Source of the DNA: Sedimentisphaera salicampi
GTDB taxonomy: Bacteria > Planctomycetota > Phycisphaerae > Sedimentisphaerales > Sedimentisphaeraceae
NCBI RefSeq assembly: GCF_002117005.1
Contig: NZ_CP021023.1
Coordinates: forward strand, 186,001 to 250,000
Direction of reading: 5' to 3'
DNA: 64,000 nt
Both the position numbers and the translations under genes were made by a program. A model generated the notes under the pieces. It was not told the DNA's origin. It was given only the letters and a program-made list of their open reading frames with translations, and ran no database searches. Positions 2,186 to 26,021 of this stretch are shown in pieces; position 1 is the stretch's first letter, and each line of letters begins with the position of its first letter.

Positions 2186-3586
2186 ATGAAACGAAGAGAT
2201 TTCTTAAAGGCTTCAGCCGCCTGCGGTATGGGGCTTTCATTGACAGGCCTTGCTGCCGGGGTGTCGGCAGAAAAATCTGCAGTAAGCAAGCCGAATATAG
2301 TGTTTATAATGGCCGATGATTTAGGTTTCGGCGATTTGGGCTGCTATGGAAATCCTGTTGTTCAAAGTCCAAATATAGACACTTTCGCCCAAAACAGCCA
2401 GACGCTCACTCAGTATTACAGCGCCGGGCCGGTATGCAAGCCTACGAGGGTATCCTTCTTAACAGGCAAATACCCCTACAAAACAGGCTCAAGGATGACC
2501 GTTGACGGCAGAGACCCTTCTCTTGATGTCGGATTTTTCCCAAAAATTCTCCAGCAGGCAGGCTACACAACCAAAGTGGCCGGTAAATGGCATGTCGGTC
2601 ACTTCCCGGGCGGTATGGATATTATCGGATTCGATGAATGGTCTGTATGTGCCCCGGGTGGATGGTGTGACTACTGGGACTACACAATACACACAAAAGG
2701 AAACACTGAACCTTCTAACGGTAAATACAGCACCGATATGATAACTGAAAGCGGGCTGGAATTTATCGAAAGGAATCAGGACAACCCATTCTTTCTTTAT
2801 CTTGCTTATACTGCCCCTCATTTTCCGCTTCAGGCTCCCGAGGAGGATATAGATCCGTTCAGGGATAACAGCGACCTTGAAGAGGGAACAAAGGTTGTCT
2901 ATGGGATGATAAAACGTATGGATCATGGTATCGGCCAGATACTTGCAAAGCTCAAGGCAAAAGGCCTATATGATAATACTATGGTAGTGTTCACAAGCGA
3001 TAACGGGCCTAGATTCGGTGCATATAAAGGATTATCACAAGAGCGATATAACGGTCATTTAGCCGGCCAGAAATCTTATACGCTCGAGGGCGGCATAAAA
3101 GTGCCTGCTATTGTGCATTGGCCGCAGAAGTACAATTGCCCGTGCAGTTATTATCCATATATGATGCATACAGTGGACTGGTTCAAAACGCTGCTGACCG
3201 TTGCCGGAGCAGATATCCCGCAAGGAACTGATATCGACGGGGATTGTTATGTAGATTACCTGCTCAACTGCAAAAAGGGCGATGATACCAAGAGGTATTG
3301 GTCTTTCAATAATGTCCGCCCCACATCAAAGAGCAACAGCGCCATGCGAGATGGAGATTGGAAGCTGAATCGTCCTGCGATTGAGTCTTTCAAGAGATGG
3401 GACCAGCCAGCTGATCTGCCTCTGCCCGATGATATACCGGACTACGAGCTTTACAGAATAGATAAAGACCCGTTTGAAAAGAATGACATCTCTGATGAGT
3501 ACCCCGAGAAAACAAAAGAAATGATAAGAGATTTTGAAAACTGGTTCGATGCTGTTATGAAAAAACACAGAGAACTTAATTCATAA
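2186..3586 (+). CDS. Secreted formylglycine-dependent sulfatase
   Basis: This 466-aa enzyme of the type I (S1) sulfatase family hydrolyses sulfate esters. A twin-arginine signal opens the protein (MKRRDFLK, then a hydrophobic stretch to about residue 28), so export in folded form is expected. Calcium-binding aspartates are in ADD at 43-45. Cys84 lies in the signature CKPTR followed by TGKYPYKTG, so a maturase must convert it to formylglycine; none is encoded here. Other family motifs are GKWHVG, HFPLQAP and TSDNGPR. The length is typical. The ATG is preceded by AGGAG. Its neighbours suggest a sulfated polysaccharide substrate, but the sulfate position and sugar cannot be read from sequence. 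Confidence 0.93.
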   Translation: MKRRDFLKASAACGMGLSLTGLAAGVSAEKSAVSKPNIVFIMADDLGFGDLGCYGNPVVQSPNIDTFAQNSQTLTQYYSAGPVCKPTRVSFLTGKYPYKTGSRMTVDGRDPSLDVGFFPKILQQAGYTTKVAGKWHVGHFPGGMDIIGFDEWSVCAPGGWCDYWDYTIHTKGNTEPSNGKYSTDMITESGLEFIERNQDNPFFLYLAYTAPHFPLQAPEEDIDPFRDNSDLEEGTKVVYGMIKRMDHGIGQILAKLKAKGLYDNTMVVFTSDNGPRFGAYKGLSQERYNGHLAGQKSYTLEGGIKVPAIVHWPQKYNCPCSYYPYMMHTVDWFKTLLTVAGADIPQGTDIDGDCYVDYLLNCKKGDDTKRYWSFNNVRPTSKSNSAMRDGDWKLNRPAIESFKRWDQPADLPLPDDIPDYELYRIDKDPFEKNDISDEYPEKTKEMIRDFENWFDAVMKKHRELNS

Positions 3587-3613: not shown

Positions 3614-6600
3614 ATGCGATACTTTACTGCAATTACTGTTTTTGTTTTAGCCATTTCGGCTGCGAATTTTGGAGCTTTCTGGGATGGAGGTGCAGGCACA
3701 ACTTCCTGGAATGATGCTGCAAACTGGGACCCTGACGGTGTGCCAACCACCGATACTGACATTAGCCTTGGAGCGGATCCTGTTCAGGAAATTGTTGTCT
3801 CAGACAATGCATCCAGCAACAGAATTGATCTGGGCTACGATAACGGCAAGGATGTAAACCTAACAGTTGATGGAGCTGTATTAACTACAGGATGGTTTGT
3901 AAACGCCAGCAAAAATGTTAATTCAACTGTTAATATTACTAATGGCGGAACCCTTGATACCGTTCTTAATAGATTATATGTTGCCAACTCAGGCACCGGC
4001 GTGCTGAATGTCTATGACGGAACTGTCAAAAACCTGAACACCGTTTACGGGATTTTTATGTGCGATAAAAGTTCAGGCAACGGAACAATCAATCTCTATG
4101 GAGGCGAGATTATAGCTAACGGTATTGAAGCAGGGCTTTATTCTGGACAGTGGCAGATAAATATCGGTTCGGGCCAGCTCATACTCAATGGAGACCACAG
4201 AAGTTTTCTAAATACCTATTCGGATAATTTTATTCCTTTTGACGGCATGACAGATATCAATGTCAATTATTATTCCGATACTGATAAGACAGTAGTCTCT
4301 GCTGAAGAGGTTGTGCAAAACGATAATCTATACTGGGATGGAGGTGCAGGCACAACTTCCTGGAATGATTCTGCAAACTGGGACCCTGACGGTGTTCCAG
4401 CATCGGATAATGATCTGAGCCTTGGAGCGGATTCTGGGCAGGAAATTGTAATCTCGGCTGACGCCTTCAGCGGCAGAGCCGATCTTGGTTATGATAACGG
4501 CAAAAATGTCAGCCTTACAGTTGATGGAGCCGCGTGGACTTCCGGATGGGTCGTAAATGCAAGCAAAAATGTTAATTCATCTATTAATATTATTAATGAC
4601 GGAACCCTTGATACTGTTCAAAACAGGCTTTATGTAGCAAGCTCCGGCACTGGTGTTATAAATGTATATGAAGGGACTGTCATAAACTCGAATCCTGATT
4701 ACGGGATTTTTATGTGCGATCAGCCTACCGGCAACGGCAAAATTAATCTCTTCGGCGGTGAAATTATTGCTAATGGGATAGAAGCCGGTTCTTACCCCGA
4801 TCAGTGGCGGATTAATATTGGCTCGGGCAAGCTCACGCTAAACGGAGACCATAGAAGCTTTCTAAATACTTATTCGGATAATTTTATCCCTGTTCAGGGT
4901 ATGACAGATATAAATGTGAACTATTCACCTGACACGGGTAAGACAGTGGTCTCTGCAGAAAGAATTCTGCAAGAAAATTACGTATTAGAGAACCCGCGAG
5001 AAATACCAGTTATAGCCGAAAAAGACGTTGTAGTTTTAGGCGGTTCTACGGGCGCAGTTAGTGCAGCAGTAAGCGCTTCAGAGTCTGGTGCAAGCGTATT
5101 TCTTGCTGCTCCTAAGAAGTTTCTGGGAGAAGATATATACGGGTCCTATCGTTTGTGGCTTGAAGATGGGTTAGAGCCCAACAGTTTACTGGCAGAAAAG
5201 GTCTTTGAAGAACCTGAGCCCTTTGAAAATATGCTGGATTTTGATTACACAACTGATATTCCTTCAGCAGGCGGCCACAAAGATACTGACCCTCCATCAC
5301 TTTTGAACGACTTCAAATACGCAAACGCAGTATCCCAAAGTGTACAATATGATGGGGATGTAAAAATCACAGTTGACTTGGGCGCCATTGAATCCTTCTA
5401 CAAGCTGAATTTAAAGGCTTACCAAAGAGTCAACGGCTTTGAAGTTCAAGATGTAACTGTATTCGCAAGCAGCGACCAGCAGCAGTGGCAGCAGATAGCA
5501 TACATCGAAAACGATATGATCGGCGAAGGTTTGACAGATTTCGATACGGTTGATTTAGAGGCTCAGGTTAATGGGCAATATCGCTATTTAAGATTTGATG
5601 TTCAGAAAACCGACAATGTCTCAAGAGTTCTGCTCGCTGAGCTGCAAATAATTCAGGAGCCTGAAGGCGGATTGCAGTCCGGCAGAAGACCGCCAACTCC
5701 AATGCAGGTAAAAACAGTTCTAAACGATGCACTTTTTGATGCTGACGTCCCCTATATTGTCAGTTCTTATCCAACTGAGATTTTGAAAGATGCAAGTGGT
5801 AATCCCGCCGGCGTAGTTATTACAAACCGCACCGGTAGGCAGGCCATTAAAGCAAAGGTAATCATTGATGCTACTCCAAGAGCTGCTGCTGCACGGATCT
5901 GCGGTGCGCAGTTCAGGCCTTTCCCTCAGGGTAATCAGCAGTTCAAGAGATATGTTGTCAGAGGTGAAGAAAAAACAGGGCCTAAGCTTCAGTCAAGAGT
6001 AATGCCAACGCCGGTATCCGGCCTTTACAGCGGCAATTATGATGCTTTGGAGTATCAGATAGAAATATTTATGCCCGATAATTCTTACGCTTCTTTCCAA
6101 GAGGCAGAACAAACAGCAAGAGAGCTTACATACAGCATTGAGCAGGTGGATACTTCTCAGGGAATTTGGCAGATTCCACAAGACCCAGTGCTCTCTTCTA
6201 ACCAGTACAGCGGCGAGTTCAGCTCAATTGATGATATACCAGAAGAGAGTTTCAAATCTGTTTCGACAGACAGGATTTATGTTCTCAGCGGATGTGCTGA
6301 TGTTTCCCGTACTATTGCTGAGGAGCTTTTATATCCTCCTGTTTATATAGCTCTCGGTGAAAGAATAGGCGGCGCTGCTGCCTTGGCAGCTTCTAATATA
6401 TCATTGCCGCAGGATGTTGAAGTGAAATCTAATAATAAGGCTGCTTCAATCTCGGCAGAAGTTAAAGAATCCAAATATGGAGCCCGTCCGACAGACTTCA
6501 CCGCTTCAATGGTGAAAAGCGAAGCCCGCGGGTTGAAGGTTTTAGCAGAATATGATGTTGTAGTGGTTGGCGGCGGGACTTCGGGTGCTCCTGCGGCTAT

Positions 6601-8488
6601 AGCAGCTTTAAGAGGCGGCGCAGATACCCTCGTGGTTGAAGCAATGCACGACCTTGGCGGCGTGAGTACGCTTGGCTTGATAGGCAAATACTATTACGGT
6701 AACAGAGTAGGATTTACAGAAGAGCTTGATACTGGTGTTGCTGCTATGAACGCCCCGCAGCTAAGCGATAACGTTCATTGGAATGTTGAGGCCAAGGAAG
6801 AATGGTATAGAAATATGATTTCATTTATGGGCGGTGATATATGGTTTGAAGCTATAGGCTGCGGAGCAGTTGTGGACGGCAGCAAGGTTAAGGGCGTTGT
6901 TGTTGCTACGCCTCTTGGGCGAGGTGCAGTTCTAGCAGATGTCGTTATTGATGCAACCGGTAACGGTGAGATCGCAATTCCTGCAGGTTCTGATTATATG
7001 TTCACAGACGACGCCCACGCCGCTATGCAGGGAACAGGACTTGCTCCCCGAAACTTGAATGATAATTACTCCGTTCCGTTCTGGTATGCAAATAACGACT
7101 GGACCTACGTTGATGAGACAGATGTTAAAGACGTGTTCCGTACAAGCGTAAGGGGGCTTGATAAATACAGCTCTGCTTATGATATAAGCCAGTTCATACA
7201 AACAAGAGAAAGAAGGCGCATTGTCGGGGATTACTGTTTACAGGTGCCGGATTTTCTAAATCTGAGAACATTCCCTGACACCATAGCCAAGGCATACGGA
7301 GGAAAATACGACTCCCACGGCTTTACAGTACATCCGTTCCAGAGTATTAAGACATCTGAGTATAATCATTGTTATATACCGTATCGATCTCTGATACCCG
7401 CTAATCTGGACGGGATTCTCGCCGCAGGGTTAGGGATTAGTGCTCATAGAGATGTTATCCCTGTTTTCAGAATGCAGCCTGATATACAGAATATTGGTTA
7501 TGCCGCTGGTGCGGCGGCCGCTTTAGCTTCAGAGAACGGCGGACACGTAAGAGATATAGATGTTGAACAGCTCCAGGAGATGCTTGTAGATAAGGGGATA
7601 ATCGAATCTGCTGTCAAAAACCATCAAGACTCTTTCCCGTTTACACAAAGTGAGATTTCTCAAGCGGTCCAGCAGATGATTGCAAGCTCGGATTATGAAG
7701 GCCTTAAAAAAGTTCTCGCGCAGCCGGAGGACGCTGTGCCGTTCCTCGAAAATGTGTGCTATGATACATCAAAGAGCTTTGAGCAGAGGCTCAGGTCAGC
7801 GCACGTCCTTGGCTTTCTTGGTAATTCTGCAGGTTCTGCTCTGCTTGTTGATGCTGTGGAAAATTATTCAGAGTGGGACGAAGGCTGGAATTTCAGGTCA
7901 GGCGGCCAGTTTGGCTCCAGTTTGAGTAGGCTGGACTCCTACATAATTGCTTTGGGTAAAACAGGCGATATCTCAGGGCTTCAGCCAGTTTTAGATAAGG
8001 CAGAGCTCTTGGGTGAAACTGATGCTTTTTCTCATTTCAGGGCTGTTGCGATTGCTCTTGAGTCTATAGCATCACCTCAGGCCGCCGAGCCCCTTGCGAA
8101 CCTGCTGAATATAAGCGGCGTTAGAGGTCATGCAGTTACAAATGTTGAGCAGGCTTTGAATAACCCGCTAAACAGGAGAAATTCTCTGAGAGAGATAATT
8201 TTGGCGAGGGCTTTGTACCGCTGCGGTGATTATAATAACCTCGGTTTGAATACGCTTAAGCAGTACAAATCTGATTTGAGAGGGCATTATTCAAGGCATG
8301 CCCACGCTGTTTTAAGAGAAGCGGATATCAATAACGATGACTCAGTAAATTTAGGTGATTTGTCTTTTTTAGGTGATAGATGGCTTACATTTTGTGATAT
8401 GTGCTATGGTGCTGATTTGAATTCAGACAAAATCGCAGATATCGATGATCTAACAATAATAGGAAGTCAATGGCTTGAGCAAATGTGA
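3614..8488 (+). CDS. Giant secreted multidomain flavoprotein (beta module x2, FAD x2, discoidin, HEAT-like, dockerin-like)
   Basis: The protein has 1624 aa. Order by residue: Sec signal peptide 1-20; two copies of a beta-rich module starting WDGGAGTTSWND (about 21-233 and 239-450); a Rossmann-type FAD fold from about 471 with a discoidin (F5/8C)-like domain inserted at about 559-677; a second, complete FAD_oxidored-type domain from about 979 with intact GGGTSG and a later IPYRSL; HEAT-like repeats at about 1390-1530; and two dockerin-like calcium loops (DINNDDSVNLGDL and DLNSDKIADIDDL, 1571-1624). The first FAD half reads GGSTGA where GxGxxG is expected and lacks IPYRSL, so it may be inactive. 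Predicted location is outside the cytoplasm, which is unusual for a flavoenzyme with a Sec-type signal. Substrate unknown. The gene at 9615 is its paralogue. Confidence 0.88.
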   Translation: MRYFTAITVFVLAISAANFGAFWDGGAGTTSWNDAANWDPDGVPTTDTDISLGADPVQEIVVSDNASSNRIDLGYDNGKDVNLTVDGAVLTTGWFVNASKNVNSTVNITNGGTLDTVLNRLYVANSGTGVLNVYDGTVKNLNTVYGIFMCDKSSGNGTINLYGGEIIANGIEAGLYSGQWQINIGSGQLILNGDHRSFLNTYSDNFIPFDGMTDINVNYYSDTDKTVVSAEEVVQNDNLYWDGGAGTTSWNDSANWDPDGVPASDNDLSLGADSGQEIVISADAFSGRADLGYDNGKNVSLTVDGAAWTSGWVVNASKNVNSSINIINDGTLDTVQNRLYVASSGTGVINVYEGTVINSNPDYGIFMCDQPTGNGKINLFGGEIIANGIEAGSYPDQWRINIGSGKLTLNGDHRSFLNTYSDNFIPVQGMTDINVNYSPDTGKTVVSAERILQENYVLENPREIPVIAEKDVVVLGGSTGAVSAAVSASESGASVFLAAPKKFLGEDIYGSYRLWLEDGLEPNSLLAEKVFEEPEPFENMLDFDYTTDIPSAGGHKDTDPPSLLNDFKYANAVSQSVQYDGDVKITVDLGAIESFYKLNLKAYQRVNGFEVQDVTVFASSDQQQWQQIAYIENDMIGEGLTDFDTVDLEAQVNGQYRYLRFDVQKTDNVSRVLLAELQIIQEPEGGLQSGRRPPTPMQVKTVLNDALFDADVPYIVSSYPTEILKDASGNPAGVVITNRTGRQAIKAKVIIDATPRAAAARICGAQFRPFPQGNQQFKRYVVRGEEKTGPKLQSRVMPTPVSGLYSGNYDALEYQIEIFMPDNSYASFQEAEQTARELTYSIEQVDTSQGIWQIPQDPVLSSNQYSGEFSSIDDIPEESFKSVSTDRIYVLSGCADVSRTIAEELLYPPVYIALGERIGGAAALAASNISLPQDVEVKSNNKAASISAEVKESKYGARPTDFTASMVKSEARGLKVLAEYDVVVVGGGTSGAPAAIAALRGGADTLVVEAMHDLGGVSTLGLIGKYYYGNRVGFTEELDTGVAAMNAPQLSDNVHWNVEAKEEWYRNMISFMGGDIWFEAIGCGAVVDGSKVKGVVVATPLGRGAVLADVVIDATGNGEIAIPAGSDYMFTDDAHAAMQGTGLAPRNLNDNYSVPFWYANNDWTYVDETDVKDVFRTSVRGLDKYSSAYDISQFIQTRERRRIVGDYCLQVPDFLNLRTFPDTIAKAYGGKYDSHGFTVHPFQSIKTSEYNHCYIPYRSLIPANLDGILAAGLGISAHRDVIPVFRMQPDIQNIGYAAGAAAALASENGGHVRDIDVEQLQEMLVDKGIIESAVKNHQDSFPFTQSEISQAVQQMIASSDYEGLKKVLAQPEDAVPFLENVCYDTSKSFEQRLRSAHVLGFLGNSAGSALLVDAVENYSEWDEGWNFRSGGQFGSSLSRLDSYIIALGKTGDISGLQPVLDKAELLGETDAFSHFRAVAIALESIASPQAAEPLANLLNISGVRGHAVTNVEQALNNPLNRRNSLREIILARALYRCGDYNNLGLNTLKQYKSDLRGHYSRHAHAVLREADINNDDSVNLGDLSFLGDRWLTFCDMCYGADLNSDKIADIDDLTIIGSQWLEQM
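3674..4313 (+). repeat. Beta-module repeat, copy A
   Basis: First of five copies of a ~210-codon module (WDGGAGTTSWND ... NITNGGTLDT ... GGEIIANGI). The first ~155 codons are nearly identical in DNA to copy B (8617). The repeated pattern resembles the beta-helix-like passenger segments common in planctomycete PEP-CTERM proteins. Confidence 0.9.
4331..4966 (+). repeat. Beta-module repeat, copy A'
   Basis: Second copy inside the same gene, directly after copy A. It is more diverged from A than A is from B (PASDNDLSLG instead of PTTDTDISLG), so the internal duplication probably predates the A/B homogenisation. Confidence 0.88.
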
Positions 8489-8550
8489 TTTGATTCGAGT
8501 CTTAAATTAAATGTTCCAAAGTAATGTATTATTAAAAAAGAGGTGAAATT

Positions 8551-9321
8551 ATGATTGATGGGAAATTTAGGCAGTTACTGACAATTGTGTTAGTTTTGTC
8601 AACTGTGAGTTACGCTGCTTTCTGGGATGGAGGTGCAGGCACAACTTCCTGGAATGATGCTGCAAACTGGGACCCGGACGGCGTCCCCACTACGGATACT
8701 GACCTTAGCCTTGGAGCGGATCCTGTTCAGGAAATTGTTGTCTCAGACAATGCATCCAGCAACAGAATTGATCTGGGCTACGATAACGGCAAGGATGTAA
8801 ACCTAACAGTTGATGGAGCTGTATTAACTACAGGATGGTTTGTAAACGCCAGCAAAAATGTTAATTCAACTGTTAATATTACTAATGGCGGAACCCTTGA
8901 TACCGTTCTTAATAGATTTTATGTTGCCAACTCGGGTACCGGTGTGGTGAATGTCTATGACGGAACTGTCAAAAACCTGAACACCGTTTACGGGATTTTT
9001 ATGTGCGACAAAAGTTCAGGTAACGGAACAATCAATCTCTATGGTGGTGAGATTATAGCTAACGGTTTGCGGGCCGGTTCATATTCTGACCAATGGAGCG
9101 TTAATATTGGTTCCGGGGAGCTGAAACTAAACGGAGACCACAGGACCTTTATGAACACCTATTCAGATAATTTCAACCCTATACAAGGTATGACTTCAAT
9201 TGAGGTTGATTACGATTCCCAAGGCGACCTAACTACTGTAACTGCTGTCCCAGAACCTGCAACATTGACTTTGCTGGGGATTGGCGGTTTATCATTGTTT
9301 AGAAGAAAACGCAAAAATTGA
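8551..9321 (+). CDS. Short PEP-CTERM protein carrying the beta module (copy B)
   Basis: This 256-aa protein has a signal peptide (1-22, ending SYAA), one beta-rich module and a PEP-CTERM tail (VPEPATLTLLGIGG, then RRKRKN). The first ~155 residues of the module match copy A of the upstream giant gene almost exactly. The last ~80 codons instead match the short gene at 13908, so the gene is a mosaic. ATG 8551 follows AGAGGTG with good spacing, a leader shared with the genes at 9615 and 13908. It is likely an anchored or sorted surface protein sharing a structural module with the flavoprotein. No catalytic motif is visible. Confidence 0.88.
   Translation: MIDGKFRQLLTIVLVLSTVSYAAFWDGGAGTTSWNDAANWDPDGVPTTDTDLSLGADPVQEIVVSDNASSNRIDLGYDNGKDVNLTVDGAVLTTGWFVNASKNVNSTVNITNGGTLDTVLNRFYVANSGTGVVNVYDGTVKNLNTVYGIFMCDKSSGNGTINLYGGEIIANGLRAGSYSDQWSVNIGSGELKLNGDHRTFMNTYSDNFNPIQGMTSIEVDYDSQGDLTTVTAVPEPATLTLLGIGGLSLFRRKRKN
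8617..9246 (+). repeat. Beta-module repeat, copy B
   Basis: The 5' two thirds pair with copy A, while the 3' third pairs with copy D (for example GELKLNGDHRTFMNTYSDNF is identical in B and D). The switch falls near codons 155-165 of the module. Confidence 0.88.
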
Positions 9322-9356
9322 ACTCATAACTGAGATATATGCCGAGGAGGGTGCTA

Positions 9357-9391
9357 TTTTTGAGTGTGCATTATTTAGTGCACGCTCAAAA
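9357..9391 (+). terminator. Hairpin after the short PEP-CTERM gene
   Basis: TTTTGAGTGTGCA (9358-9370) pairs with TGCACGCTCAAAA (9379-9391) with one G-T wobble and an 8-base loop. ATGTTTTTAAG follows. It is consistent with a rho-independent terminator for the gene ending at 9321, although the T-tract is short and offset. Confidence 0.6.
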
Positions 9392-9478
9392 TGTTTTTAA
9401 GAAAATGTTTTATAGATAACGACGTTAATATTATTTAGGTAATGCTTCGCTTAAGTTTTGTCGTTTTATTATACTGAT

Positions 9479-9553
9479 GATTTGAATTCAGGCAAGGTTG
9501 CAGATATAGACAACCAGTAAATAGTGGGCAGACAATGGCTTGAAGATATGTAA
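9479..9553 (+). pseudogene. Fossil C-terminal tail of a third giant flavoprotein gene
   Basis: Translation from 9479 aligns residue for residue, without gaps, to the last 24 residues of the gene ending at 13844. It reads DLNSGKVADIDNQ, an in-frame TAA (9518-9520), then IVGRQWLEDM and a stop. The following spacer (to about 9600) also matches the spacer after 13844. This is a degraded dockerin-like tail left when a long gene copy between 9321 and 9615 was deleted. No upstream remnant of the FAD domains is seen. Confidence 0.8.
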
Positions 9554-9614
9554 TTTGTTTTTAATTTGTGTTAAATTGAGTGTTTAAAAGTGCTGTTTTT
9601 AAGAAGGTGAAATT

Positions 9615-12600
9615 ATGACTAATGGAAAATTTAGCCACTTACTGATAATTGTGTTAGTCTTATCAACTGCGAGCTATGCTGCTTTTTGGGATGGAGGCGC
9701 AGGCACAACTTCCTGGAATGATGCTGCTAACTGGGACCCTGACGGTGTTCCAACCCCGGATACTGACCTTGAGTTGGGGGCGGAACCTGCGCAGGAAATC
9801 GTTATCTCGGCTAATGCCTCCAGCAGCAGAATTGATCTGGGTTACGAGAATGGCAAAGATGTAAACCTCACAGTTGATGGAGCTACATTAACTACAAAAT
9901 GGTTTGTAAATGCCAGCAAAAAAGTCGATGCAACTGTTAATATCACTAACGGCGGGACGCTTGATACGGCTTACAACAGGCTCTATATTTCCAATTATGG
10001 TACAGGCGTCATAAATGTTTATGACGGAACTGTTAAGAACTTAAATACGGAGTATGGAATCTTCATGTGCGGCAAACCGGCAGGAGAAGCCACAATTAAT
10101 CTTTACGATGGTGAAATAATCGCCAACGGAATAGAAACAGGCAATCAATGGACCGTTAATATTGGTTCCGGGGAGCTGAAACTAAACGGAGACCACAGGG
10201 CCTTTATGAACACCTATTCAGATAATTTCAACCCTATACAAGGTATGACCGATATAAAGGTAAATTATGATTCTGATACAGATAAAACGGTGATTTATGC
10301 GGAAAAAGATGAGCAGGAAAACTACGTTTTAGAGGAACCACGCGAAATACCAGTTGTAGCCGAAAATGATATAGTAGTTGTAGGTGGTTCTACTGCAGCA
10401 GTGAGTGCAGCAGTAAGTGCATCAGAGTCTGGGGCAAGCGTATACTTGGTTGCCCCCAAAAAATATTTAGGGGAAGATGTCTGCGGGTCCTACAGGTTAT
10501 GGCTTGAGAATGGAGTTGACCCTAACAATGAATTGGCGCAAACAGTTTTTGAAGAGCCTGAACCTTATCAGGGAACTCTTGATTATGAATACACTGCAAG
10601 CGTACCCTCAGATCCAAAACATGAAGACACCGACCCGCCCAGTCTTCTTAATGACGGCAAGTTCACTAATCCAGTTTCTCAGAGCATTCAATATAACAGC
10701 GATGTTACTATAACTGTTGACTTAGGCGAAAGATTATCATTTGATAAAACCAATGTGATGGCATATCAGAGAGATGATAATTTCGAGGTCAAGGATGTAA
10801 CGGTTTACGGGAGTAATGACAGTCAATCCTGGGATGAACTTGCCTTTATTGAAAATGAATTGCTTGGCACAGGTTCTTATGAAGAGGATCCTATTGATTT
10901 GGTTGCTGATTTAGATGCAAAGTATCGCTATCTTCGTTTTGAAGTAAGAAAACCAGAAAATGTCTCAAGGATGCTCCTTGCAGAAGTGCAGGTTCTTCTG
11001 GCTCAGCAGGAAGCCACGGGACGCAGACCTCCTACTCCTATGCAAGTTAAAACTGAATTGAATAATGCCCTTTTTGATGCTGATGTGCCCTATGTTTTTG
11101 GTTCATATGCCACGGAAATTATAAGGGATTCAGAAAACCAGCCTGCTGGTGTTGTTGTTACTAACAGATCCGGCAGACAGGCTATACTTGGCAAAGTTAT
11201 AATTGATGCAACTGCTCGTGCTAGTGTTGCACGCAACTCAGGTGCTGAATTTGAACCTTATCCGCAGGGAATTAGCTCTTTTCAGAGGTATGTAATTCGA
11301 GGTCCGGAGCAGACAGCACCAAATATTCAGTCAAGGAAAATGACTGCTCCGGTATCAGGGCCTTACAGTGGAAATTATGAGGCTGTTGAATATCAGGTAT
11401 CGGTGAATATGATTGACGATTCCTATGCTTCATTTGCCGCCGCCGAAATGAGTATAAGAGATCTTACTTTTAGCATTGAGCAGGTTGATTCATCAGAAAA
11501 TATCTGGCAGGTTCCTCCTGACCCTGTCATTTCAAGAAACCCTTATACAGGAAATTATACTTCTGTAAGCGATATCCCTGAAGGAGCTTTTTTACCTGTC
11601 TCAACTGATCGAATTTATGTCCTTGGAGGATGTGCTGATGTGTCAAGGTCAACAGCGGAAAATCTTCTCTACCCGCCTGTTTATATAGCTCTTGGCGAAA
11701 GAATTGGCGGTTTTGCAGCTGCCAAGGCAATGAGTTTGCCTGAGCAGGAAGACGTCAAACTAAAATCAAACCATAAATCTCCCACCATAAATGGTGTGGT
11801 GAAGGAGTCCAAGTACGGAATAAGTCCCACTCGGTTTTGCCAGTCAATGATACCTGCTCAACAAAGATCTTTGAAGGTTCTGGCTGAATATGATGTGGTT
11901 GTTGTAGGGGGTGGTACGGCAGGTGCACCCGCTGCGATTTCTGCCGCAAGAGATGGGGCAGATACGTTGGTTGTCGAATTACTTCACGACCTTGGCGGAG
12001 TGGGAACATTAGGGCTCATAGGAAACTATTATGCAGGAAACAGAGTTGGTTTTACATCAGAAATCGACCAAGGTATTGCCCAAATGAATCCGCCCGAACT
12101 TTGCGAAAATTCGGATTGGAATATTGAAGCAAAAAAACAGTGGTACAGAAATGAAATAATGTCTGCGGGCGGAGATATATGGTTTGAAACCATAGGTTGC
12201 GGCGCGGTAGTCGAAGATAATAAAGTGAAAGGTGTAGTAGTTGCAACCCCATTCGGAAGGGGTGTTGTCTTGGCGGATGTAGTAATCGATTCGACTGGAA
12301 ATGCCGATATTGCAATCTGTGCTGGTTCGGATTATAGATATACTGATGACGAGCATGCCGCATTGCAGGGGACAGGTTTCCCTCCTCGAAACCTTAATGA
12401 CAACTACTCTAAATATTTTTGGTATGCCAACAACGATTGGACCTATGTAGAAGAAACGGATACTATGGATGTTTTCCGAACTGTCTTGACAGGTTTCAAT
12501 AAATGGTCTTCCGCATATGACATAAGTCAGTTCATTCTGACAAGGGAAAGAAGACGCATCGTGGGAGAGCACTTTCTTGATGTCGTAGATTTCCTGAACT

Positions 12601-13844
12601 TAAGGACTTTCCCTGATACTATAACTAAGGCTTATGGAGGTCATTACGACACTCATGGCATGACAGTACACAAGTTCTTTGATATAAAAACTTCTCAGAC
12701 TAACAATTATTGTTACATACCTTATCGTTCTCTCATCCCTGAAAATCTTGATGGTATTCTCGCAACTGGTTTGGGAATAAGCGCACATAGAGACACCATT
12801 CCAGTCATAAGAATGCAGCCAGATATCCAGAATCAAGGATATGCTGCTGGTCTCGCTGCTGCCTACGCTGCTCACAACGGTGGGCATACCAGAACTATTG
12901 ATATTGAACAACTCCAGCAAGACCTTGTTGACAAAGATATTTTAGAGCCGGAAGTTAAAGGCCACACTGATTCTTTTCCTTTTACGGAAACTCAAATTCA
13001 GCAAAGTGTTGACCAGATGATTGGTAGTTCAGAATACAGCGGACTTAAGAGAATTCTTGCGCAGCCAAATGATGCTGTTCCATACCTTGAACAGGCCTGC
13101 ATAAATACAGCCAACTCTCAAGATGCGAGGTTTAGAGCTGCACACGTTCTCGGTATGCTAGGTAATGACACTGGCATAGATCTAATTATTGATGCAGTAC
13201 AAAACTTCTCTGAATGGGATGAAGGCTTAAAGGTTAATGTTCCTGCTGGAGTGGAAAGAGATTTCGGGAACAGCTTGAGTGAACTTGACAGTTACATTGT
13301 TGCTCTTGGAAGAACGGGCAATCCAGCAGGTTTGCAGGCAATTTTAGATAAAGTGGAACTGCTCAATGCCGGCCATGAGCTCTCGCATCACAGAGCTGTA
13401 GCAATTGCTCTTGAGTCTATAGCATCACCTCAGGCCGCAGAGCCGCTAGCCAACCTCCTTGCAGAAGAAGGTATGACCGGCTTTGCAATTACAGACATTG
13501 AGCAAGCAATACCAAAGACGTATACAAGCAGGGGCAAAACATTAAGGGAACTTATTCTGGCCAGAGCTCTTTATCGCTGCGGAGATCATCAGGATGTGGC
13601 ATTAAATATATTGCAGCAATATAAATCCGACTTGAGAGGACATTATTCAAGGCATGCTCATGCTGTTTTAAGAAAGGCAGATGTGAACTGTGATAGTTGC
13701 GTCGATTTCAAGGACGTTGCTTTTCTTGGAAAAAATTGGCTTAAATTTTGTGATATGTGTTATGGTGCTGATTTGAATTCAGACAAAGTTGCAGATATTC
13801 AAGATCTTACAATAATGGGCAGCCAATGGCTTGAAGATATGTGA
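9615..13844 (+). CDS. Giant secreted multidomain flavoprotein, paralogue (beta module x1, FAD x2, discoidin, HEAT-like, dockerin-like)
   Basis: This 1409-aa paralogue of the gene at 3614 has one N-terminal module instead of two. Order by residue: signal peptide 1-21; beta module about 23-230; first FAD fold from about 251, with motif GGSTAA in place of GxGxxG; inserted discoidin-like domain about 342-459; second FAD_oxidored-type domain from about 759 with intact GGGTAG, TRERRRIVGE and IPYRSL; HEAT-like region; dockerin-like tail 1354-1409. ATG 9615 follows AAGGTG. Most of the protein differs moderately from its paralogue, whereas the N-terminal module is nearly identical to that of the short gene at 13908. 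The substrate is unknown; oxidation of an extracellular sugar or glycan is an inference from its carbohydrate-degrading neighbourhood. Confidence 0.88.
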   Translation: MTNGKFSHLLIIVLVLSTASYAAFWDGGAGTTSWNDAANWDPDGVPTPDTDLELGAEPAQEIVISANASSSRIDLGYENGKDVNLTVDGATLTTKWFVNASKKVDATVNITNGGTLDTAYNRLYISNYGTGVINVYDGTVKNLNTEYGIFMCGKPAGEATINLYDGEIIANGIETGNQWTVNIGSGELKLNGDHRAFMNTYSDNFNPIQGMTDIKVNYDSDTDKTVIYAEKDEQENYVLEEPREIPVVAENDIVVVGGSTAAVSAAVSASESGASVYLVAPKKYLGEDVCGSYRLWLENGVDPNNELAQTVFEEPEPYQGTLDYEYTASVPSDPKHEDTDPPSLLNDGKFTNPVSQSIQYNSDVTITVDLGERLSFDKTNVMAYQRDDNFEVKDVTVYGSNDSQSWDELAFIENELLGTGSYEEDPIDLVADLDAKYRYLRFEVRKPENVSRMLLAEVQVLLAQQEATGRRPPTPMQVKTELNNALFDADVPYVFGSYATEIIRDSENQPAGVVVTNRSGRQAILGKVIIDATARASVARNSGAEFEPYPQGISSFQRYVIRGPEQTAPNIQSRKMTAPVSGPYSGNYEAVEYQVSVNMIDDSYASFAAAEMSIRDLTFSIEQVDSSENIWQVPPDPVISRNPYTGNYTSVSDIPEGAFLPVSTDRIYVLGGCADVSRSTAENLLYPPVYIALGERIGGFAAAKAMSLPEQEDVKLKSNHKSPTINGVVKESKYGISPTRFCQSMIPAQQRSLKVLAEYDVVVVGGGTAGAPAAISAARDGADTLVVELLHDLGGVGTLGLIGNYYAGNRVGFTSEIDQGIAQMNPPELCENSDWNIEAKKQWYRNEIMSAGGDIWFETIGCGAVVEDNKVKGVVVATPFGRGVVLADVVIDSTGNADIAICAGSDYRYTDDEHAALQGTGFPPRNLNDNYSKYFWYANNDWTYVEETDTMDVFRTVLTGFNKWSSAYDISQFILTRERRRIVGEHFLDVVDFLNLRTFPDTITKAYGGHYDTHGMTVHKFFDIKTSQTNNYCYIPYRSLIPENLDGILATGLGISAHRDTIPVIRMQPDIQNQGYAAGLAAAYAAHNGGHTRTIDIEQLQQDLVDKDILEPEVKGHTDSFPFTETQIQQSVDQMIGSSEYSGLKRILAQPNDAVPYLEQACINTANSQDARFRAAHVLGMLGNDTGIDLIIDAVQNFSEWDEGLKVNVPAGVERDFGNSLSELDSYIVALGRTGNPAGLQAILDKVELLNAGHELSHHRAVAIALESIASPQAAEPLANLLAEEGMTGFAITDIEQAIPKTYTSRGKTLRELILARALYRCGDHQDVALNILQQYKSDLRGHYSRHAHAVLRKADVNCDSCVDFKDVAFLGKNWLKFCDMCYGADLNSDKVADIQDLTIMGSQWLEDM
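9681..10310 (+). repeat. Beta-module repeat, copy C
   Basis: Nearly identical in DNA to copy D (13974) over most of its length (PTPDTDLELGAEPAQEIV..., NRLYISNYGTGVINV). Its last ~25 codons instead resemble copy A, with SDTDKTV near the junction to the FAD domain. Confidence 0.88.
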
Positions 13845-13907
13845 TTTGTTTTAAGTTTGTGTTAAATTGAGTGTTTGAAAGTACTATTATTTAAAAGAGG
13901 TGTAATT

Positions 13908-14669
13908 ATGACTAATGGAAAATTTAGACAGTTACTGACAATCGTGTTGGTCTTATCGACTGTGAGTTACGCAGCTTACTGGGATGGAGGTGCAGGCACA
14001 ACCTCCTGGAATGATGCTGCAAACTGGGACCCTGACGGTGTTCCAACCCCGGATACTGACCTTGAGTTGGGGGCGGAACCTGCGCAGGAAATCGTTGTCT
14101 CGGCCAATGCCTCCAGCAGCAGAATTGATCTGGGTTACGAAAACGACTACGATGTCAACTTCACAGTTGATGGAGCTACATTAACTACAGGATGGTTTGT
14201 AAACGCCAGCAAAAAAGTCGATGCAACTGTTAATATCACTAACGGCGGGACCCTTGATACGGCTTACAACAGGCTCTATATTTCCAATTATGGTACAGGC
14301 GTCATAAATGTTTATGACGGAACTGTGAAGAACTTAAATACGGAGTATGGAATCTTCATGTGCGGCAAACCAGCAGGAGAAGCCACAATTAATCTTTACG
14401 ATGGTGAAATAATTGCCAACGGAATAGAAACAGGCAATCAATGGACCGTTAATATTGGTTCCGGGGAGCTGAAACTAAACGGAGACCACAGGACCTTTAT
14501 GAACACCTATTCAGATAATTTCAACCCTATACAAGGTATGACTTCCATTCAGGTTGATTACGATTCCCAAGGCGACCTAACCACTGTAACTGCTGTCCCA
14601 GAACCTGCAACATTGACTTTGCTGGGGATTGGCGGTTTATCATTGTTTAGAAGAAAACGCAAAAATTGA
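13908..14669 (+). CDS. Short PEP-CTERM protein carrying the beta module (copy D)
   Basis: This 253-aa protein has the same plan as the gene at 8551: signal peptide, one beta module, PEP-CTERM tail (VPEPATLTLLGIGG, RRKRKN). An in-frame start at 13875 would add 11 residues, but ATG 13908 (MTNGKF) has the shared AAGAGGTG leader and aligns with its paralogues, so I use it. It forms a long/short pair with the giant gene that ends 63 nt upstream. The two share their N-terminal module but carry different C-terminal sorting devices (dockerin-like versus PEP-CTERM). It is the last plus-strand gene before a convergent minus-strand operon. Confidence 0.88.
   Translation: MTNGKFRQLLTIVLVLSTVSYAAYWDGGAGTTSWNDAANWDPDGVPTPDTDLELGAEPAQEIVVSANASSSRIDLGYENDYDVNFTVDGATLTTGWFVNASKKVDATVNITNGGTLDTAYNRLYISNYGTGVINVYDGTVKNLNTEYGIFMCGKPAGEATINLYDGEIIANGIETGNQWTVNIGSGELKLNGDHRTFMNTYSDNFNPIQGMTSIQVDYDSQGDLTTVTAVPEPATLTLLGIGGLSLFRRKRKN
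13974..14594 (+). repeat. Beta-module repeat, copy D
   Basis: Fifth copy of the module. It is almost the same as copy C over its first 190 codons, and the same as copy B from there into the PEP-CTERM tail. Confidence 0.88.
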
Positions 14670-14682
14670 ACTCATAACTGAG

Positions 14683-14758
14683 ATATATGCAGAGGCCGGA
14701 ATACTTAAGAATTCAAGCTGATAAATGCTGCACACTTTGAAAAAGCCTCTGCATATAT
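14683..14758. terminator. Perfect 14-bp inverted repeat between convergent genes
   Basis: ATATATGCAGAGGC (14683-14696) is exactly repeated in inverted orientation at 14745-14758, with a 48-base loop. It separates the PEP-CTERM gene (plus) from the mannosidase (minus), and its right end touches the mannosidase stop codon. It probably acts as a two-way terminator or RNA-stabilising stem. The left arm is preserved imperfectly after the gene ending at 9321, where the right arm is gone. Confidence 0.55.
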
Positions 14759-17700
14759 TATTCCAGTTTCAGTTTAATCGTCTTTATTTCCCATGGCCGG
14801 AAGCTGAGGTTTATCATTTTTGAGCTGGATTTTAGTTCGCAGATTTCTTCTTCCAGGGCATTTGTAAGCCATGCATTCTCGATTTCGAAGGCTGATTTGA
14901 GTTTGGCCTCGCTGCTTCCGCCGGCAGATTCATAAAGCCTAAGCACAACTTCGCTGCCTTCTTGAGCCTTTTTAACAGTCTCTAAAACTGCAGTTTCTGA
15001 TTCTATATCAAAGAAGCTTAAAGAATTGCTGCTTGCTGAAGGAATTGGGCAGTCCTCGTTTATGATAAGGGGCGAGTTTAGCTCGCTCGCAGCCTCAGCA
15101 ACCCCGCCCTGAATTAAATTACCTTTATGCGGCAGAAGCGAATATGTGAAGCTGTGTTTGCCCTGATCTGCCTCTTTTCCGGGGAAACTCGTACTTCTGA
15201 GCAGGTTAATGTCTATCACATTCCCAAATAAATTATAGCCGTATTTACAGTCATTTAGAATTGCAGCGCCTCTGTCCTTCTGTGATATGTCCACAAATTT
15301 ATGTGCGCATACCTCAAGCATAGCCTTATCCCAGCTTGTGTTGGTATGGGTTGGGCGTCTTAGATTGCCGAACTGTATATCGCAGGTTGCAAAATGGCTG
15401 AAAACATTCAGCGGGAATTTCGTCCTTAGCATTTTGGAGTTTTCATGCCAGTCAACCTCCGTATTGAAGTCTATTCGTTTGCTGCCGTGAGTTAGGACAA
15501 TCTTTTGGGTAAGTTTTGAATTACCGTAGGAGTATGTCTGTTCCAGAATCGCCTTTGGACCGCTGAGGCTTGCAGAGCTGCTTTCGAGCTTGAAGGATTC
15601 AGAAGGGAGCTTCTGATAGTCTTCAAGTATATCCCATGCATCGCCGTTGTCGGTGTAAACATCAAGGGTGTTGCCTTTGCTGCCTTCATGTATTGTTTCA
15701 AATCCTGCCTGCTTGTCATAAGCGGATATAAGGCGGCCATCTTCTGAAAATTCAAGCCTGATAAGTTCGTTTTCAAGGAGCTTTCTTTCGGCTTTCAGAG
15801 GAAAACTTTCTTCAATAATCTCTGATTTTTTAAAGCATCTAAAGCCCATCGGTTCCACTTCGGCTTTCAGCCAACCGTATTTTGTTTGAACCCACTCGCT
15901 TCTTTTCCATGATAGGGTGTTGAATACTGCTATATCATTGCTGCTCGCGTCAAATCTGCCGTTTTTATTCTCTGAGAGTGATTTTAATGCATCTCTGGTA
16001 AGCTGCTGCACTTCCTGAAGCAGCAGTTCATATCTTTCGAGACACTCATCGTAAACCCGCTTCATTGAAGACCCTGGCAGTATGTCGTGGAATTGATAGA
16101 GAAGGACTTCTTTCCAAATCTCATCAAGCCTTTCTTGCGGGTAATCCCACCCATTCTGCATAGCGACGGTTGCCAGGAATTCGAGGTCCCGCAGACGCAG
16201 TTCCAGCATCCTGTTGTATTTTTTGGTTTCAGCCTGCGAGGTGTATGTGCCTCGGTGTTTTTCAAGATAGAGTTCTCCGTGCCATTGAGGGTAGTTTGCG
16301 CTGTCTTGGTTAAGATGTTCGAAAAAGTCCGAGCTGAATTCCTGCTTTACAGGGGGAAGTCCGCTAAGGTTTTTGAGCCTTTTGAGCTTCTCGAGATGTT
16401 CTGCGCCAGGCCCTCCGCCTCCGTCTCCAATTCCAAAAAGCATCAGGCATCTATCGCTTACAGCTTTCTGGGCGTAATTCTTTTCTGACTTAGCTATAGA
16501 CTGCGGGCCTGCATTGCTGTTGTATGTTTCTTCCGGAAGCATATGGCTCAATACTGCTGTTCCGTCCAGGCCTTTCCAGTAAAAGGTGTGATGGGGGAAT
16601 TTGTTGGTGTCATTCCACGAGAGTTTCTGAGTCATGAAGTAATCAACTCCGCAAGTCTTCATTATTTGTGGAAGAGATGCTGAATATCCGAATACATCAG
16701 GAAGCCAGAGATTCCTTACGTCAAGCCCAAATTCTTCTCTATAGAATGTTTTACCGTAAACAAATTGTCTTATGAGGGATTCACCTGAAGGCAGGTTGGT
16801 GTCTGATTCAACCCACATTCCACCCTGAAGCTCCCATCTTCCCTCAGCGACTTTTTCTTTTATCTTGCTGTAGAGGTTAGGGTATTCATCTTTAACCCAT
16901 TGATATAGCTGGGGCTGACTGGCTCCAAAAATGTATTCAGGGTAGCGTCCCATTAAATCCAGTACGGTTGAAAATGTCCTTGCAGCCTTCCTGAAGGTTT
17001 CTCTTATCGGCCAGAGCCAGGCTAGATCCATGTGGGCATGGCCTACAGCGCTGACTTTCAGGCATGGGTCTAAGCTTTTTCTGCTCAGCTCCTTACTTAG
17101 CAGGTCTCTCGCCCGCTTTACTTCATCCTCATCGAAGTTATGAAGTATCACCATCGCCTCATAAAGAGCTCTTGAAGCCCTTGCATATCTTGCACTGTCT
17201 TTATCCAACACCTGCATAAGCTCTCTGATTGTCCAGTAGTCGTAGTAGAGATCTCTTATGTCATCCCTGCATACGGCTATATCTGCCTGTTCTATTCTGC
17301 CGTCTTTGCATAGTGTTCCGAAAAGGTCGTTGCAGCCTGCATCAATCCATATATCTATTTTGCCGGTTTGCTTTGCATCATTCGAGAGCTGAAGTACCCT
17401 TTTTCCGGGTTGTCCCAGCGAAAAGCAGAATGAAGAGCTGCCGTTGGTTAATCCTCTCTGAGGATTCCCGTGATTATCAAATACGCAGGCCTCTCCGTTG
17501 AAGTCTATCAGGAGAACGGTATGTTTATCTTTGCAGTCCTCTGGCACATCTCCTGTAATGTGAAACCAGCAGCAGTCGAAAACATCGCCCCATTTATCTC
17601 CCGGCTTAAAGGTTTTCTTTTCACCTTCGGTTTTCCTGTCAAAGGGAAGAGGTTCTTTAGTTGTGTAACCCTCAATATTGAGGGGTGTCTTTGGGGTATA

Positions 17701-17769
17701 AATTTTTTCTTTTATATCGTCTGCAAATTGGATCATCATTTCAATCTGCTTCTCGGAAAATCTAAACAT
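14758..17769 (-). CDS. GH38 alpha-mannosidase
   Basis: This 1003-aa glycoside hydrolase of family 38 removes alpha-mannosyl residues. Residues 1-235 form the N-terminal extension. GHAHMDLAWLWP at 243-254 supplies zinc ligands His246 and Asp248, and LWLPDVFGYS contains the probable nucleophile Asp358. The C-terminal half is the usual beta-sandwich region. There is no signal peptide, so it is probably cytoplasmic and acts on imported mannosides. The start follows AAGGAT. It is the last gene of a minus-strand run containing an FAD oxidoreductase, a symporter and URO-D-like proteins. A palindrome-bearing hairpin lies just upstream. Which manno-oligosaccharide it uses cannot be read from sequence. 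Confidence 0.93.
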   Translation of the reverse strand: MFRFSEKQIEMMIQFADDIKEKIYTPKTPLNIEGYTTKEPLPFDRKTEGEKKTFKPGDKWGDVFDCCWFHITGDVPEDCKDKHTVLLIDFNGEACVFDNHGNPQRGLTNGSSSFCFSLGQPGKRVLQLSNDAKQTGKIDIWIDAGCNDLFGTLCKDGRIEQADIAVCRDDIRDLYYDYWTIRELMQVLDKDSARYARASRALYEAMVILHNFDEDEVKRARDLLSKELSRKSLDPCLKVSAVGHAHMDLAWLWPIRETFRKAARTFSTVLDLMGRYPEYIFGASQPQLYQWVKDEYPNLYSKIKEKVAEGRWELQGGMWVESDTNLPSGESLIRQFVYGKTFYREEFGLDVRNLWLPDVFGYSASLPQIMKTCGVDYFMTQKLSWNDTNKFPHHTFYWKGLDGTAVLSHMLPEETYNSNAGPQSIAKSEKNYAQKAVSDRCLMLFGIGDGGGGPGAEHLEKLKRLKNLSGLPPVKQEFSSDFFEHLNQDSANYPQWHGELYLEKHRGTYTSQAETKKYNRMLELRLRDLEFLATVAMQNGWDYPQERLDEIWKEVLLYQFHDILPGSSMKRVYDECLERYELLLQEVQQLTRDALKSLSENKNGRFDASSNDIAVFNTLSWKRSEWVQTKYGWLKAEVEPMGFRCFKKSEIIEESFPLKAERKLLENELIRLEFSEDGRLISAYDKQAGFETIHEGSKGNTLDVYTDNGDAWDILEDYQKLPSESFKLESSSASLSGPKAILEQTYSYGNSKLTQKIVLTHGSKRIDFNTEVDWHENSKMLRTKFPLNVFSHFATCDIQFGNLRRPTHTNTSWDKAMLEVCAHKFVDISQKDRGAAILNDCKYGYNLFGNVIDINLLRSTSFPGKEADQGKHSFTYSLLPHKGNLIQGGVAEAASELNSPLIINEDCPIPSASSNSLSFFDIESETAVLETVKKAQEGSEVVLRLYESAGGSSEAKLKSAFEIENAWLTNALEEEICELKSSSKMINLSFRPWEIKTIKLKLE

Positions 17770-17947: not shown

Positions 17948-19354
17948 TCAAGATTTCAGGTCTCTGAGCATACCCTGTTTCTTGAGTTTTTTCTGCATTT
18001 TTGTTACGGAAATATCTCTCAGCCCAGTCCCTTTACCAGCTGCCATAGCTGCGGCAAGTCCGGCTGCCTGTCCGGTTTGCGAAACTATAGGCTGAACCCT
18101 GTAGGCCGTCATTGCTATATGTGTGCCGCTGATTATTTTTCCGGCTGTTAAGAGACCCTCAAATCCGCTTGGGATAAGAGATCGGTAAGGAATACCGAAA
18201 GGGGGGATATGCTTGTCTTCTTTAGTCCAGCTCTCACCCCAGCCGTCAAGATAGTATTGACCGATAGCTACAGTGTCATCTGCATATTTGCCTTTCCTCA
18301 TGTAGCCTTCGGTAATTACAAAATCGCCTTTGATTCTTCTGTTTTCCCTTACTCCTACTTTAGGCGCAAAATTTACCGTGAAACCGCTTTCAAAGAGCTT
18401 TCTTACCGTTGGTTTCAATCTTTGCTGCAAGAGCCTCTGGGTATTTGACACTTCTATAGGGTTTCTCGTATCCTTGCAAATTTCAGTGGCTCCCCAGTGA
18501 ATATAAATCCCGGTCTTTCTATTGTAAAAGCTATCTTTCACATTTTTGAACCAACCGTAGCCGTAATCGATGCATCCTGCATTTAGCTCTTCATAAACCT
18601 TGAAGTCAGATTTTTCAGTTCCGAACTTCTGACTTATAAACATCTGCGTACAGGGCATAACCCTCTCATCAGCTTTTTCTTTCCCGTGAGTTTCATTGAA
18701 TTGTGCTTTTGAATCTCTTCCGTACATTGACTCGCAGCCGGCCATTTCACATACTGCGCCGTTGCCCGTGGCATCTATTGTAACTTTTGCTTTTACTGCA
18801 ATCGAATGCCCAGCGGCTCCGGAAGCGATCACTCCCTCAAATCTGTCTCTGTTTCCTTTTGGGCTTATCAGAGGCTCAACAGCTCTTGCCCCGCAGATAA
18901 CCTGAATATTCTTTTCTGCTGATATCATATCATCCAAAATCATACTGTAAGAGGATGGGACATACCAGAAGTCAGACAATTTATCCTTATTATTGGATTG
19001 AGGCCTCAAAAGCGAATGGTCATTTTTCAGTTTATCGACCATTTCCTTGAAAATACCCACCATCGGATTTCCGCAAAGATACCCAACGTACATATCTGTT
19101 GGCGCGCCGCCTATTTGCTGATCCTCTTCAAGCAGCACAACCCTTGCCCCTTCGCGTGCAGCAGAGATTGCAGCGGGTATGCCTGAGGCGCCCGCACCCA
19201 ATACCAGTACGTCGGTTTCAACGGCATCAATATCTAATTTACGGCCTGCATTAAGCTTATCATTATTGCCGTACATGGTTGAAGTTAAGAAAGCTGGCGT
19301 AAGCAGCGAGCTCTTTATAAAATTCCTTCTGTTGAAACTATTTATAGCTGACAT
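17948..19354 (-). CDS. TAT-exported FAD-dependent oxidoreductase
   Basis: This 468-aa protein begins with a twin-arginine signal (NRRNFIK at 8-14, hydrophobic stretch to about 28). The FAD-binding motif is intact (VLVLGAGASGIPAA near 50-63), followed by a glutamate-rich second strand end (VVLLEE). IDATGNGAV, IPYRSLIP and QTGQAAGLAAAMA place it in the FAD_oxidored group (PF12831-like), the same family as the active half of the giant proteins at 3614 and 9615. Its reaction is unknown. It was chosen to start at ATG 19354, which follows GAGGT. Same-strand neighbours are a symporter (66 nt upstream) and a mannosidase downstream. Confidence 0.9.
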   Translation of the reverse strand: MSAINSFNRRNFIKSSLLTPAFLTSTMYGNNDKLNAGRKLDIDAVETDVLVLGAGASGIPAAISAAREGARVVLLEEDQQIGGAPTDMYVGYLCGNPMVGIFKEMVDKLKNDHSLLRPQSNNKDKLSDFWYVPSSYSMILDDMISAEKNIQVICGARAVEPLISPKGNRDRFEGVIASGAAGHSIAVKAKVTIDATGNGAVCEMAGCESMYGRDSKAQFNETHGKEKADERVMPCTQMFISQKFGTEKSDFKVYEELNAGCIDYGYGWFKNVKDSFYNRKTGIYIHWGATEICKDTRNPIEVSNTQRLLQQRLKPTVRKLFESGFTVNFAPKVGVRENRRIKGDFVITEGYMRKGKYADDTVAIGQYYLDGWGESWTKEDKHIPPFGIPYRSLIPSGFEGLLTAGKIISGTHIAMTAYRVQPIVSQTGQAAGLAAAMAAGKGTGLRDISVTKMQKKLKKQGMLRDLKS

Positions 19355-19420
19355 TATAAAACCTCATACAATTTTTATTAGAGAATAATTTCCTAAAACT
19401 TGCTTTATCAGGCAAACATT

Positions 19421-21409: not shown

Positions 21410-21438
21410 CTTAAGTATACCTTTTAATGTTGTAGTGT

Positions 21439-22557: not shown

Positions 22558-22568
22558 CTAATGCTCTT

Positions 22569-23573: not shown

Positions 23574-23646
23574 TAGATTCCCTTTTGCTTAAATTTATAA
23601 TTATTATCTAATGACAAACATAACTTCATTTGCCAAATTCGCAAGT

Positions 23647-25759: not shown

Positions 25760-25820
25760 TTGATACCTCAACAAATTCAAATAAAAAAATGTTAACACGA
25801 AGCAACTTTTGCATATGGTA

Positions 25821-25848
25821 AAACTAACAAATAGCAAATATTTGTCAA
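25821..25848 (-). promoter_or_regulatory. Predicted sigma-70-type promoter for the URO-D/symporter operon
   Basis: On the minus strand, a perfect TTGACA (25848-25843) is followed after 16 bases by TAGTTT (25826-25821). A transcript would start near 25814, giving a leader of about 55 bases before ATG 25759. It lies back to back with a plus-strand promoter. Confidence 0.45.
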
Positions 25849-25884: not shown

Positions 25885-26021
25885 CTCTTTCATAAACTGT
25901 ATCTGATAGCTAAAACTTTTTTATTACTGTTTTGTTCAAGATTTAGTGATCTCGCTTAAAGCAGTGTTACAAAAGCTTTGTTGACTTCTGTATATTGTTA
26001 ACCGAATTTAAGGGCTTTTTT

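Follow-up and report, generated by a model that had tools for sequence, protein, structure and literature searches.

Two paralogous double-FAD genes

The window analysed here is a stretch of 64,000 nucleotides, positions 186001-250000 of the single-contig 3.19-Mb genome of Sedimentisphaera salicampi. Its plus strand carries two large open reading frames, P0001 (3614..8488, 1624 aa) and P0002 (9615..13844, 1409 aa), whose products are 67% identical over 1391 columns. Pfam profiles revealed the same architecture in both proteins: two homologous FAD_oxidored (PF12831) folds of the type that binds flavin adenine dinucleotide (FAD), hereafter FAD1 and FAD2, with an F5/8C domain inside the first fold and a HEAT-like tail behind the second. 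FAD1, including its insert, spans 5000..6421 in P0001 (65.5 bits) and 10341..11759 in P0002 (67 bits), and FAD2 spans 6530..7618 (164.8 bits) and 11868..12959 (181.2 bits). All four folds exceeded the family cut-off of 27 bits. The stretch 5020-8200, singled out by a first-pass annotation made from the sequence, extends from FAD1 of P0001 as far as the HEAT tail of this protein.

That annotation described the first fold as interrupted by a discoidin-like domain, and this was borne out. An F5/8C (PF00754, discoidin/CBM32-like) domain lies between the two parts of FAD1 at 5246..5665 in P0001 (32.0 bits) and 10587..11000 in P0002 (31.9 bits; cut-off 28.2; boundaries approximate in both). The predicted model of the P0002 insert matched a C-terminal part of BT0459 (Z 17.4, root-mean-square deviation 2.2, 139 residues), and membership was thus found by both profile score and beta-sandwich fold. 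GH89 alpha-N-acetylglucosaminidases were also matched weakly by the FAD1 profile, in their F5/8C-type part (E 0.0018).

The HEAT-like helical tail occupies 7661..8293 in P0001 and 12987..13634 in P0002. The P0002 tail, with predicted helices, passed the HEAT_2 profile (PF13646, 30.8 bits, cut-off 27.7); the P0001 tail remained below threshold and was assigned by its homology to the P0002 tail and to those of all complete relatives. Both proteins were said to carry a Sec-type signal and a dockerin-like tail. The signal was read by eye. In the tail of P0001 (8306..8485) two DxNxD repeats are visible by eye, and its P0002 counterpart (13656..13841) scored 12.2 bits with Dockerin_1 (PF00404), below the cut-off of 22.9. 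Across the genome, 49 dockerin-like matches were found at E 0.1 and, at the same threshold, no match to cohesin (PF00963). With no cohesin and a sub-threshold tail, cellulosome-like anchoring through a dockerin was rejected.

Flavin-site motifs and fold of the two halves

The glycine-rich motif reads VVLGGSTGA in the first fold of P0001 and VVVGGGTSG in the second; the corresponding motifs of P0002 are VVVGGSTAA and VVVGGGTAG. IPYRSL is confined to the second fold in both proteins. These readings agree with the first-pass annotation, which took them to indicate an inactive first half and a catalytic second half. We counted the motifs in an alignment of 93 proteins. FAD2 keeps every FAD signature in 93/93: GGGT-x-G, the acid after strand 2 (Glu in 92, Asp in 1), the GG pair and the glycine of D(S/A)TG. 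In FAD1 the first glycine is likewise kept in 93/93, but the second site is Ser in 53, Thr in 23 and Gly in 13, and the third is Ala in 56 and Gly in 37.

GGSTGA alone was rejected as proof of an inactive half. Similar motifs, GGTSAG or GGTSSG, stand in intact single-fold PF12831 proteins of related genomes, and 13 of the 93 FAD1 sequences have GGG, which makes the motif weak evidence. Stronger evidence for loss of the flavin site comes from three other positions. The acid after strand 2 is present in none of the 93 FAD1 sequences (Ala in 87). The GG pair is equally absent (0/93), the second G of LGG being replaced by Glu or Asp in 87, mostly as LGED or LGDD, and never being Gly. The DATG glycine is also missing (0/93), with Asp, Pro, Glu or others in its place. 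Variation at the second glycine thus occurs in intact PF12831 proteins, whereas all 13 single-fold ones that we read retain GG at the LGG site. These patterns indicate that FAD1 very likely lacks canonical FAD binding and that FAD2 almost certainly binds FAD, and the inactive half first proposed from the motif would accordingly be a pseudo-enzyme on grounds other than GGSTGA.

Profiles of FAD1 and FAD2 align over 308 columns (99.7% probability, E 2e-25, 23% identity), and the two halves are therefore homologous. The mean majority-residue fraction is 0.744 in the N-terminal Rossmann part of FAD1 and 0.722 in FAD2, falling to 0.627 in the second part of FAD1 and to 0.54, the lowest among the domains, in the F5/8C insert. 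AlphaFold modelled residues 235-1340 of P0002 with a mean predicted local distance difference test score (pLDDT) of 89.7 and a predicted template modelling score of 0.90; FAD1 with its insert reached a pLDDT of 91.2. FAD1 alone matched solved flavoproteins at Z about 16-18 (about 17 over 212-269 residues), among them flavocytochrome c3, geranylgeranyl reductase, cyclohexanone dehydrogenase and Thi4. The FAD2 model matched the same group (Z about 18). Among solved sequence relatives, profile searches extended to the dinucleotide motif, to HEAT-like designs and to F5/8C domains, and no further. AlphaFold thus confidently gives FAD1 a complete flavoprotein fold, and the Rossmann part of FAD1 is conserved to the same degree as FAD2; alignment and model together argue that FAD1 is a maintained pseudo-flavin half.

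Distribution, insertion and export

The relatives place the window in Planctomycetota, and a search with FAD1 of 392 genomes of this phylum found relatives in 20. Presence is patchy, the sole other same-genus genome in the search having no relative. A scan of GTDB species genomes found relatives encoded in 288 stretches. The 80 best loci, which we retained, span Planctomycetota, Verrucomicrobiota, Lentisphaerota, Hydrogenedentota and Omnitrophota. All 91 complete relatives recovered have the first fold, the second fold and the HEAT-like tail. We read this constancy throughout the family as the mark of a real enzyme design, not of decay in one genome. FAD1 had no match in plasmid and phage collections. 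A same-family genome (G127) holds three relatives by the first-half search and more by a PF12831 search; there and at L046, several double-FAD paralogs occur, two of them in tandem behind a GntR-type regulator.

The architecture had been thought undescribed, and we found no paper on it in the open-access literature; it is, however, not peculiar to this genome but conserved in five phyla. Double-FAD proteins thus apparently form a widespread, mostly exported and undescribed bacterial family.

The insert goes together with export. We scored an export leader as a 12-residue mean hydropathy of at least 1.5 ahead of FAD1, a measure of hydropathy only, with start codons set mechanically. Such a stretch precedes FAD1 in all 82 insert-bearing relatives (mean hydropathy above 2 in 72) and in 3 of 9 insert-less ones; several insert-bearing relatives have a lipobox-like Cys. 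In a tree of the second half and tail, a branch of 100% support (Shimodaira-Hasegawa-like approximate likelihood-ratio test, SH-aLRT) sets eight insert-less proteins apart, the ninth (L056) being a long-branch exception. This tree is unrooted and does not give the direction of insert gain or loss. FAD1 is degenerate in the same way on both sides of the branch, and its degeneration is therefore independent of insert and export. Insertion of the F5/8C domain as the cause of the degeneration was rejected for the same reason. The suggestion that flavin-site loss is tied to presentation of carbohydrate consequently failed, the insert-less members, most without an export signal, being equally degenerate.

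An exported enzyme would have to hold its flavin outside the cytoplasm. Flavocytochrome c3 is a periplasmic protein with non-covalent FAD, and FAD in this location is unusual but has precedent. Export of FAD has been documented in Listeria (PMC9973259). No EetB-family exporter of the energy-coupling-factor type (PF07456) was found in the present genome; ApbE, which concerns covalent attachment of flavin mononucleotide, is present.

Gene context, proposed mechanism and known systems

The double-FAD genes lie in a tandem duplication. A unit of ~5.34 kb, consisting of a double-FAD gene and a PEP-CTERM gene, is duplicated within 3614-14669, where an N-terminal module of ~213 aa occurs five times. 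P0001 has two tandem copies (3671..4978; no fold assigned, no Pfam match over cut-off), and sequence comparison placed one copy in P0002 (9678..10319). The same module builds two further plus-strand proteins: a PEP-CTERM protein at 8551..9321 (PF07589, 28 bits) and, at 13875..14669, a second protein with a PEP-CTERM-like end. Their modules share 80% and 92% identity, respectively, with the P0002 module. Module copies at 3679-3978 and 8622-8921 share 97% DNA identity and the PEP-CTERM ends at 9091-9347 and 14439-14695 share 98%. These values far exceed the 71-86% of the enzyme parts, which suggests recent gene conversion between the enzyme and an anchor-type protein.

A plus-strand sulfatase gene (2186..3586; PF00884 201.5 bits, SGSH_C 31.3 bits) ends 27 bp upstream of the P0001 gene and is its probable operon partner. 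On the minus strand are GH38, single-fold FAD_oxidored, sodium symporter and URO-D-family genes. The URO-D-family cluster at 17948-25837 includes the sodium:solute symporter and the single-fold FAD_oxidored protein, which has a Tat-like start (RRNFIKSS), and is adjoined by the GH38 alpha-mannosidase (14758-17769). Further on, a GxGYxYP putative glycoside hydrolase (25995-27854) adjoins a DUF3604 protein (27860-30532). Promoter and terminator scans did at best as well as on shuffled sequence and were not used.

In one clade of 20 proteins, most double-FAD genes precede or lie near parts of a conserved gene series: xylose-isomerase-like (PF01261), PIG-L deacetylase (PF02585), PfkB kinase, DUF4432, mannitol-1-phosphate dehydrogenase-like and a distant relative of glucosamine-6-phosphate deaminase (best E 0.0086 to solved structures). 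The commonest families among 75 operon-like neighbours are xylose-isomerase-like (9) and PIG-L (7). In four insert-less loci (L058, L059, L060 and L064) the double-FAD gene has an AraC-type gene, recognised by eye and by mutual similarity, as its opposite-strand neighbour. The clade operons, the window sulfatase and the surrounding genes favour a carbohydrate as the substrate, which we regard as probable; an amino sugar is a tentative lead.

We propose, with moderate confidence, that the two double-FAD proteins are exported flavoenzymes, each an intramolecular pseudo-dimer that acts on carbohydrate outside the cytoplasm. An ancestral FAD_oxidored domain would have been duplicated, or two paralogs fused. 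FAD2, as the catalytic half, would bind FAD and oxidise or reduce the substrate. FAD1 would have kept the flavoprotein fold and lost flavin binding; its role as a partner would be structural, ligand-binding or both, and as a flavin-free twin it would complete the particle or give it shape. In exported members the F5/8C (CBM32-like) domain on FAD1 probably keeps the glycan close to the FAD2 site. A constant part of the design is the HEAT-like tail, the N-terminal modules and dockerin-like tail being lineage-specific.

Several observations weigh against this proposal. The carbohydrate substrate is deduced from neighbouring genes and the F5/8C domain, and the clade with the amino-sugar operons is not the clade of the window proteins. 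In one intact single-fold PF12831 protein the acid is replaced by His (GGTSAG...VHPGVRLGG). Together with the Ser or Thr tolerated at the second glycine, this case means that atypical flavin binding by FAD1 could be conceived.

Other roles for FAD1 fit part of the evidence. It might be a dedicated pseudo-subunit, fused to a catalytic flavin half, with a non-flavin ligand (a glycan end or a nucleotide) and with the task of controlling or feeding the FAD2 site; we hold this possible but doubtful. Were it true, the family would be a broadly distributed class of exported flavoenzymes that modify glycans and have a pseudo-enzyme partner built in as an obligatory part. Rather unlikely is a substrate-binding or allosteric role of its own for FAD1 with another ligand, for instance nicotinamide adenine dinucleotide or its phosphate (NAD(P)), a sugar nucleotide or another metabolite. 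FAD1 does have near-invariant residues of its own, including D288, R518 and R540; the LGG site reads G286, mostly Glu or Asp next, then D288 in 93/93. The Ala at the acid site is followed two positions on by Arg in 68/93, which may resemble some NADP sites. Most members are exported, however, to where NAD(P) is scarce, and the sequence points to no particular ligand.

Less likely again is that both halves bind FAD, FAD1 at an atypical site, and that the enzyme works with two flavins, perhaps as an electron relay. The complete predicted fold of FAD1, its strongly conserved Rossmann part and the second-glycine variants of intact single-fold proteins would suit this reading, but three FAD-contact signatures are missing in 93/93, and the acidic residues found at the GG site in most would be expected to repel the FAD phosphates. 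That these are ordinary PF12831 enzymes whose first-half differences are noise or decay in this genome is very improbable: intact relatives do have motifs that come near GGSTGA, but the pattern does not vary among the 93 proteins, which come from several phyla, and FAD1 is as constrained in its Rossmann part as FAD2.

Domain libraries return only FAD_oxidored matches for these proteins, leaving the second, degenerate fold unmentioned. If one half is a fixed pseudo-flavoprotein, nature provides in this family a case in which to ask why catalytic folds outlive their cofactor. Its members are also candidate exported redox enzymes for glycan breakdown in Planctomycetota and relatives, where known enzymes are mostly hydrolases, lyases and sulfatases.

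Among known systems, single-fold FAD_oxidored (PF12831) proteins such as that at 17948-19354 of the window share the fold family and signatures of FAD2, including IPYRSLIP, but have one fold and lack FAD1, the F5/8C insert and the HEAT tail. Both halves have the flavocytochrome c3, urocanate reductase and fumarate reductase flavoprotein group among their best matches to solved structures (Z about 16-18); members of this group have a single FAD fold and align partially to the halves, at 14-23% identity. Rab GDP dissociation inhibitor and Rab escort protein (GDI/REP) lack FAD, and FAD1, predicted to retain an FAD-type fold, may be likened to such pseudo-flavoproteins. The likeness is by analogy only, GDI/REP being neither tandem nor bacterial and unrelated in function. 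In the 3-keto-glycoside pathways, glycoside 3-oxidases oxidise the sugar through flavin before bond cleavage (PMC10646112). The xylose-isomerase-like neighbour of one double-FAD clade recalls these pathways as a functional analogy only, since glycoside 3-oxidases are GMC-superfamily flavoproteins, unlike the PF12831 double-FAD proteins.
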